Positions 32,851 to 33,487 of a stretch of 38,822 bases of DNA are shown piece after piece. Under the pieces are notes generated by a model. It did no database searches. It had not been told where the DNA came from and worked only from the letters and a program-made list of their open reading frames with translations. Source of the stretch: Eggerthellaceae bacterium. Its GTDB lineage: Bacteria; Actinomycetota; Coriobacteriia; Coriobacteriales; Eggerthellaceae. The stretch is taken from contig JAFUCE010000138.1 in assembly GCA_017459805.1 (NCBI GenBank), positions 1-38,822 on the forward strand, read 5' to 3'. A program made the translations under genes and the position numbers. Position 1 is the first letter of the stretch; each line of letters opens with the position of its first letter.

Positions 32851-32879
32851 TTGCCAAGGTGTTGTGATTCAGATACTAT
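32851..32879 (+). promoter_or_regulatory. Promoter of tRNA-Asn
   Basis: TTGCCA (32851-32856) and TACTAT (32874-32879) are exactly 17 bp apart, about 30 bases before the tRNA. The -35 box also reads TTGGCA on the other strand, facing the M23-like gene. Confidence 0.75.
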
Positions 32880-32908: not shown

Positions 32909-32983
32909 TCCTCGGTAGCTCAACGGCAGAGCATCCGGCTGTTAACCGGAGGGTTGTAGGTTCGAATCCTACCCGGGGAGCCA
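32909..32983 (+). tRNA. tRNA-Asn (anticodon GTT)
   Basis: Acceptor TCCTCGG/CCGGGGA (one G-U), anticodon arm CCGG-CTGTTAA-CCGG giving GTT, T arm GTAGG-TTCGAAT-CCTAC, discriminator G and encoded CCA. The last 20 bases are repeated exactly at 33162. Confidence 0.97.
32964..32983 (+). repeat. 20-bp direct repeat, copy 1 (3' end of tRNA-Asn)
   Basis: The sequence from GAATCCTACC to the encoded CCA is repeated without a mismatch at 33162-33181. Duplication of a tRNA 3' end is the usual footprint of a tRNA-targeting integrative element or of a partly lost tandem tRNA. Confidence 0.9.
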
Positions 32984-32992
32984 TAAATATTT

Positions 32993-33022
32993 CGAGCCAG
33001 GTAAACTTACTTGGCTCGTTTT
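32993..33022 (+). terminator. Terminator of tRNA-Asn
   Basis: CGAGCCA pairs with TGGCTCG, an inner GTAA/TTAC stem extends it, and TTTT follows. It begins 10 bases after the tRNA. Confidence 0.85.
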
Positions 33023-33029
33023 GTTTAAG

Positions 33030-33070
33030 CAAAGGGGATTCGAACCAACAACCATTTAAAAGCAGGTTCG
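33030..33070 (-). pseudogene. Degenerate tRNA-like fragment (tRNA-Lys-like 3' half)
   Basis: On the minus strand the order CTTTTAA (anticodon-loop-like), ATGGTTGTT and GGTTCGAATCCCC (T arm) resembles the 3' half of a tRNA-Lys with TTT anticodon. The 5' half and acceptor are absent or scrambled. It lies between the two copies of the tRNA-Asn end and is most likely debris. Confidence 0.5.
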
Positions 33071-33073
33071 ACC

Positions 33074-33101
33074 CCCGCGATACGCTTTAGCGTATTGCGG
33101 G
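33074..33101. repeat. 12-bp-stem hairpin
   Basis: CCCGCGATACGC, loop TTTA, GCGTATTGCGGG forms a 12-pair stem with one G-U. There is no T-run after it on either strand. It is the first of several hairpins in the gene-free stretch 32984-33412. Confidence 0.75.
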
Positions 33102-33109
33102 TGCCCCGA

Positions 33110-33157
33110 GTGTCAAGGCTCGCGCAGCGACCGCTGAAAGCGGCCTGGCCTTGACAC
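33110..33157. repeat. Nested hairpin (10-bp outer stem, 5-bp inner stem)
   Basis: GTGTCAAGGC (33110-33119) pairs with GCCTTGACAC (33148-33157). Inside, CCGCT-GAA-AGCGG (33131-33143) forms its own stem. The structure ends four bases before the repeated tRNA-Asn end. Confidence 0.75.
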
Positions 33158-33161
33158 GAGT

Positions 33162-33181
33162 GAATCCTACCCGGGGAGCCA
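33162..33181 (+). repeat. 20-bp direct repeat, copy 2 (duplicated tRNA-Asn 3' end)
   Basis: This is an exact copy of the last 20 bases of tRNA-Asn including CCA. No tRNA body precedes it. A strong terminator follows nine bases later, as expected at the end of a transcription unit. Confidence 0.9.
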
Positions 33182-33189
33182 AACTTTTT

Positions 33190-33216
33190 AGCCTGTTCTA
33201 ACGAACAGGCTTTTTT
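33190..33216 (+). terminator. Strong terminator downstream of the duplicated tRNA-Asn end
   Basis: AGCCTGTTC, loop TAAC, GAACAGGCT is a perfect nine-pair stem followed by six T residues. No intact gene on this strand ends here now, so it probably served a tRNA copy that has decayed. Confidence 0.9.
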
Positions 33217-33412: not shown

Positions 33413-33487
33413 TGGTGGGCGTTACTGGGATTGAACCAGTGACCTCTTCCGTGTGAAGGAAGCGCGCTCCCCCTGCGCCAAACGCCC
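33413..33487 (-). tRNA. tRNA-Val (anticodon CAC)
   Basis: The minus strand has acceptor GGGCGTT/AACGCCC, anticodon arm CTTCC-TTCACAC-GGAAG giving CAC, T arm ACTGG-TTCAATC-CCAGT, discriminator A and encoded CCA. Confidence 0.97.

Follow-up and report, generated by a model that had tools for sequence, protein, structure and literature searches.

Mobile DNA docks most commonly at the 3' ends of tRNA genes, and the usual rule is that one integrase serves one tRNA. Tyrosine integrases of the T-loop crossover class leave att pairs in tRNA genes, one integrase usually using one attP, and casposon-type insertion gives rise to a target duplication at the tRNA 3' end. REP/RAYT elements, Rickettsia palindromic elements and bacterial MITEs are small non-autonomous mobile repeats (PMC2229807; REP transposases, PMC2817692). 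Here we describe a structure behind a tRNA-Asn gene that on balance we take to be one copy of a non-autonomous family of small mobile hairpin cassettes targeting the T-loop.

The gene lies in a 38.8-kb stretch of DNA that was analysed as a whole (the window), and it is followed by a unit of about 200 bases that includes a copy of the 3' end of this tRNA. The cassette itself comprises two hairpins, HP2 and HP3, measures ~75-110 nt in its various copies and has the right end GAGCGAA. The features of the locus are:

32851-32879, plus strand: sigma-70-like promoter of tRNA-Asn, TTGCCA-17-TACTAT (consensus scan only)
32909-32983, plus strand: intact tRNA-Asn(GTT) with encoded CCA (ARAGORN; Rfam RF00005)
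32993-33018, plus strand: predicted terminator of tRNA-Asn, at the midpoint of a long foldback
33036-33066, minus strand: tRNA-Asn in inverted copy, spanning the anticodon arm through the T-arm (about nt 27-62; alignment)
33065-33071, plus strand: left flank GGTTCGA, one half of a T-loop
33074-33101, plus strand: hairpin HP2, apical GATACGC-ttta-GC, with variable arm sequence and conserved pairing
33107-33160, plus strand: conserved hairpin HP3, CGAGTGTCAAGGC...GCCTTGACACGAG, with inner mini-hairpins, also present in small Rep/Mob plasmids
33158-33164, plus strand: GAGTGAA at the cassette's right end, where the family has the consensus GAGCGAA (alignment)
33162-33181, plus strand: exact duplicate of the last 20 nt of tRNA-Asn, from T-loop to CCA
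33190-33211, plus strand: second predicted terminator, AGCCTGTTC-TAAC-GAACAGGCT, then a T run

A sequence-only reading of the window had reported an exact second copy, at 33162, of the final 20 bases of tRNA-Asn. Indeed, the window contains GAATCCTACCCGGGGAGCCA at two positions only, 32964 and 33162 (198 bases from start to start), the copies enclosing the 178 bases that had been counted between them (32984-33161). The terminators that it had placed in the spacer and behind the duplicate were both recovered among five terminator-like sites in the region, compared to 1.0 in shuffles, and the loop type of the second also occurs behind tRNA-Gln in the same genome (L005). The two strong hairpins that it had seen are HP2 and HP3, the cassette being predicted to fold with z = -5.9 as single-stranded DNA and z = -4.8 as RNA relative to shuffles; the 178 bp hold hairpins and no convincing gene. 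What it had taken for a tRNA-Lys-like fragment on the other strand turned out to be an inverted piece of tRNA-Asn: the stretch scores 17 against tRNA-Asn versus 11 against the window's tRNA-Lys, its apparent Lys anticodon TTT occupies the position of GTT in tRNA-Asn, 17/18 positions match when it is treated as an inverted repeat (I2), and the score of 16 for the inverted fragment was equalled in 0/300 spacer shuffles. The cassette interrupts the T-loop of the partial second tRNA copy (GGTTC/HP2-HP3-GAGCGAA/TCC...CCA), and base 57 of the left flank (A or G) tracks the local tRNA in most cassette copies. Beyond the unit, tRNA-Val(CAC) (33413-33487) lies on the minus strand here and on the same strand directly behind tRNA-Asn in four relatives (G001, G003, G005 and G006), an orientation that is probably a local rearrangement adjoining the tRNA-Asn unit.

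A search of the genome of this window (G000) with the insert, which the sequence-only reading had proposed as a check, revealed the same layout behind tRNA-Leu(CAG) and tRNA-Thr(CGT), where duplicates of each tRNA's own 3' end are spaced 188 and 198, respectively, and a covariance model of HP3 (R1) found eight copies in this genome. Matches to R1 occurred in 17/138 genomes of the family (a few were weak and, by eye, coding) and matches to a model of HP2 plus HP3 (R2) in 18/395 genomes of the order, nearly all from one family; in total, the HP2/HP3 covariance model gave ~30 copies in 16-17 of the 395. Another family of the order has one clear copy, at tRNA-Pro TGG (L097), whose repeat extends beyond CCA, and across a 396-genome sample of the phylum R1 and R2 matched the own genome only. 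Six weak matches (L062, L064, L065, L082, L096 and L098) resemble coding or unrelated sequence and were set aside as chance matches. The relatives with named records are Coriobacteriaceae MAGs from rumen or gut. On the basis that the cassette is found again at some ten tRNA identities (Asn, Leu, Thr, Pro, Arg, Met, fMet, Ser, Val and Glu) in several genera, the short insert is the element itself, and since the same arrangement is found at other tRNAs, each matching its own gene, the tRNA-Asn duplicate is not due to chance. The open-access literature that we searched nowhere describes tRNA-loop palindromes or the HP3 sequence.

All 30 tabulated copies lie within tRNA sequence. The bases following the cassette equal the last 17 of the adjacent intact tRNA (17/17) at Leu (G000, G001), Asn (G000, G126), Thr (G000, G127), Arg, Met, Ser-GCT and Val; Leu of G002 matches at 16/17, the first Pro unit of G001 is truncated by a second tandem unit, and the match to the tRNA end is poorer in the Pro-TGG copy of L097 and in G016, whose Ser copy is degenerate. 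The repeat starts sharply in the T-loop and, at six loci (Arg, Leu of G001, Met, Thr of G127, Val and Pro of G364), runs ~20-100 nt past CCA into the terminator, the duplicate varying from 17 nt to over 100 nt with no fixed target-duplication length. At Leu and Thr the copies and their tRNA disagree at position 59, which puts the start of the true duplicate at about nt 60. Most copies have the right end GAGCGAA, and between the ends (GGTTCRA/HP2 and GAGCGAA) there are two internal hairpins and no shared TIR. Tandem units are present at Pro (G001), Leu (G002) and Ser (G000), and apparently at Val (G060). The tRNA-Ser copies L077 and L079 occupy the D-loop, at GGTCGA. Roughly one third of the copies, or more, reside in tRNA 3' halves that start at the anticodon loop and were displaced by a larger element, in some of them (L053, L059, L073, L076 and L093) directly within the T-loop. 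AbiEi/AbiEii-like gene pairs (by eye) are located near such cassette-bearing displaced halves in two genera (L124 4154-5502 and L127 6954-8458). At the tRNA-Thr locus, an exact 55-bp direct repeat (L003 1371-1425 and 1719-1773, 348 bp apart) consists of the spacer between terminator and HP2 and a second copy downstream.

How does this family compare with the described systems? With REP/RAYT, Rickettsia elements and MITEs the cassettes share that they are short, non-coding, hairpin-forming, multicopy and geneless. However, those repeats number hundreds per genome versus about eight here, and the cassettes are confined to tRNA loops, each with a piece of the neighbouring tRNA, with no TIRs recognised. 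Eight copies, all in tRNA sequence, are not the high-copy intergenic palindromes of REP/RAYT, and MITEs of DDE transposons do not fit a cassette with neither TIRs nor a target duplication of fixed length. Tyrosine-integrase attL/attR pairs resemble the unit in the direct repeat from T-loop to CCA and in the intact tRNA at one end, whereas the cassette has no integrase and no gene cargo, and one cassette type serves many tRNA identities; the repeat overlapping a tRNA 3' end that marks an integrative element is present, and integrase or element genes between the repeats are not. Casposon-type insertion shares the target duplication at the tRNA 3' end, but here the cassette is under 120 nt and the duplicate ranges from 17 to over 100 nt. 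Group II introns and retrons do not apply either, as RVT_1 reverse transcriptase was found in none of G000-G005, some of which are incomplete MAGs. Judged by its duplicate, the cassette works partly like an integrative element, and membership of any of the named families fails on the features tested.

Comparison of orthologous loci revealed both inheritance and gaps. Within one genus, the unit at tRNA-Leu(CAG) is present in G000, G001 and G002, represented by its left part alone in G004 and absent in G003, and tRNA-Asn lacks the unit in G001, G003 and G005. Cassettes at different tRNAs can be each other's closest relatives (Asn of G131 versus Glu of G137, 90% identity; Arg of G137 versus Asn of G126, 86%). 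Those at the Leu locus diverge by 16-26%, yet the duplicate is identical to its tRNA; tRNA-Leu of G002 and its two duplicates all read CCTTTC, against CCCTTC in G000 and G001. In G000 a prophage occupies the anticodon loop of tRNA-Pro(GGG) (G000:C145, L126, 1-16200) and the displaced tRNA-Pro 3' half retains its cassette, the orthologue of which lies behind an intact tRNA-Pro in G001; both cassettes have the same downstream gene alongside. This conservation at the Leu and Pro loci shows many copies to be old and inherited, as a functional element would be. Y1 transposases are encoded by about two thirds of the carriers versus half of all genomes of the family, and one is present in G000 and none in the five-copy carrier G001; an association of the cassettes with Y1 is not convincing. 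The cassette copies have neither a transposase nor an integrase linked to them, and no gene lies within a unit.

The pattern of copies is consistent with hairpin cassettes inserting at T-loops while the 3' end of the tRNA is renewed. In such a scheme, a cassette of ~75-110 nt would enter the T-loop of a tRNA sequence (GGTTCRA) or, in tRNA-Ser, the D-loop (GGTCGA), and the insertion would be tolerated only where an intact 3' end of the tRNA is retained or restored. This requirement would leave survivors in two places: behind an intact tRNA, within its duplicated 3' portion and often with a duplicated terminator too, or within a tRNA 3' half that a larger element had previously displaced. The cassette would move as a folded single-stranded intermediate, with a recombinase supplied in trans. 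Against a mobile cassette speak the lack of a linked transposase or integrase, the patchy occurrence of Y1, and the absence of a fixed-length duplication and of classical TIRs.

A further comparison concerns HP3, whose sequence has ~90% identity over ~44 nt with unannotated hairpins in small plasmids (best E 8e-8), including pBBR1 (L115 1279-1323, upstream of rep), pZMO1A (L113 1441-1483), pAK51, and MobV and RepL plasmids. We take the pBBR1 hairpin stretch to be its oriV. In E. coli, HP3 occurs in 33 plasmids and 0 chromosomes, and partial matches in rhizobial and other plasmids are often near IS110 or transfer genes. The plasmid hairpins have the same mini-hairpins as the HP3 of the cassettes, but they lack tRNA flanks and an HP2 adjacent in the same order. 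An HP3-like hairpin is common to unrelated small plasmids of several bacterial groups, where it is unannotated, and the open-access papers searched do not describe the pBBR1/pZMO1A hairpin. Exact HP3 patterns are absent from IMG/VR, a shorter pattern hits a single contig there (with rep-, relaxase- and integrase-like ORFs by eye), and phage records yield HP3 matches at chance level only. Given the plasmid matches, HP3 suggests a signal that may be read in single-stranded DNA. The stem of HP3 includes a TTGACA-like box and, as folded single-stranded DNA with such a box, resembles the Frpo/ssi single-stranded promoters (PMC11541004), from which it differs in having no suitably spaced -10-like element (by eye); a Frpo-like promoter was rejected for this reason.

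A second, unrelated-looking palindrome (core AAAACAGYCCAGTGGRCTGTTTT) is present in 18/137 genomes of the family. Its place at several genes for tRNA-Gln, -Ser, -Arg and -Asn is that of the first cassette type, with an inverted T-arm on one side and a duplicated tRNA 3' end with terminator on the other, and in G131 and G000:C10 it stands in tandem with the first type. Elsewhere, it stands alone as the tip of long intergenic hairpins whose arms are variable but complementary (L128, L135, L140, L142, L145, L147, L149, L155 and others). Another palindromic repeat, on TGGCAAGAAATGACGGAGTTGTACG, lies behind two cassette loci (L002 429-545 and L003 1811-1927). Conceivably, these loci are integron-like arrays in which the tRNA is the first site and unrelated hairpin cassettes are stacked behind it by recombination at GGTTC/RA, each step regenerating the tRNA's own 3' end and terminator, via folded single-stranded DNA related to the plasmid hairpins; we entertain this possibility tentatively.

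The main rival reading, which we consider unlikely, is a host-functional structured element: the downstream unit would affect the tRNA transcript or serve as a decoy, perhaps through pairing with the T-arm or through presenting a second 3' end to processing enzymes or the integrases of incoming elements. Such a function would agree with HP2, in which both sides have changed at 7/7 pairs with pairing kept (22 copies), the covariation score being 0.400 compared to 0.123 in shuffles and <=0.133 when partners are slid; the stem of HP3 is almost invariant across copies, and between the Pro orthologues of G000 and G001 stem substitutions are compensated (by eye). However, template-switch repair of imperfect palindromes also yields compensatory change and could mimic covariation, so that covariation alone is no proof of RNA function. 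The whole tRNA-Asn region folds as RNA with z = -7.4 relative to shuffles, and the predicted fold, in which the T-arm would pair with the inverted copy and the 5' strand of the acceptor with the second 3' end, favours a host function, as does a duplicate that stays identical to the tRNA despite the divergence of the Leu cassettes, with the CCTTTC variant of G002 shared. Yet a strong predicted terminator separates tRNA and unit, a third or more of the copies lie at displaced, non-functional tRNA halves, and the unit is absent from most tRNAs, most genomes and orthologous loci of congeners. Rfam 15 gave no match above the gathering score outside tRNAs. The sequence-only reading had held that a structure conserved in relatives without any insertion would point to a functional RNA: conservation was found at the Pro and Leu orthologues, but one congener lacks the unit at Leu and three lack it at Asn.

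That reading itself had proposed an attL/attR pair around a collapsed integrative element, a larger element shrunk to a few hundred bases. The classical att block of tRNA integrases is just such a direct repeat, extending from T-loop to CCA; empty sites occur, and larger elements do use tRNA genes here, as the prophage in tRNA-Pro of this genome illustrates. The repeat behaves like a target or att duplication, and, as had been anticipated, the 3' ends of the tRNAs in question are hotspots. The collapse, however, is improbable: integrase and element genes are lacking, and several genera carry the same cassette of 75-110 nt at many tRNA identities, making independent collapses to one core implausible.

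Less probable still is an RNA-templated origin, in which reverse transcription of tRNA and terminator would stop at modified A58 and switch template to a hairpin RNA, the cDNA being inserted beside the tRNA gene. The true duplicate at Leu and Thr begins just beyond A58, and the inverted copies resemble snap-back products, whereas RVT_1 is missing from G000-G005, and the similar motif GGTCGAA of one target, a D-loop, points to a sequence motif. Finally, the decayed tandem tRNA copy broken by an unrelated palindrome, also envisaged by the sequence-only reading, accounts for a partial second tRNA with a cassette in its T-loop, but as a single invasion it is scarcely credible with the same cassette and layout at ~10 tRNA identities.

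A mobile cassette family that acts on the universal T-loop of ~10 tRNA identities, with a copy of the local 3' end left behind in every case, would break the one-integrase-one-tRNA rule and would imply a novel duplication mechanism. The cassettes also constitute a natural set of palindromes for separating selection from palindrome repair, and HP3 connects chromosomal tRNA sites with a hairpin of broad-host-range plasmids such as pBBR1.
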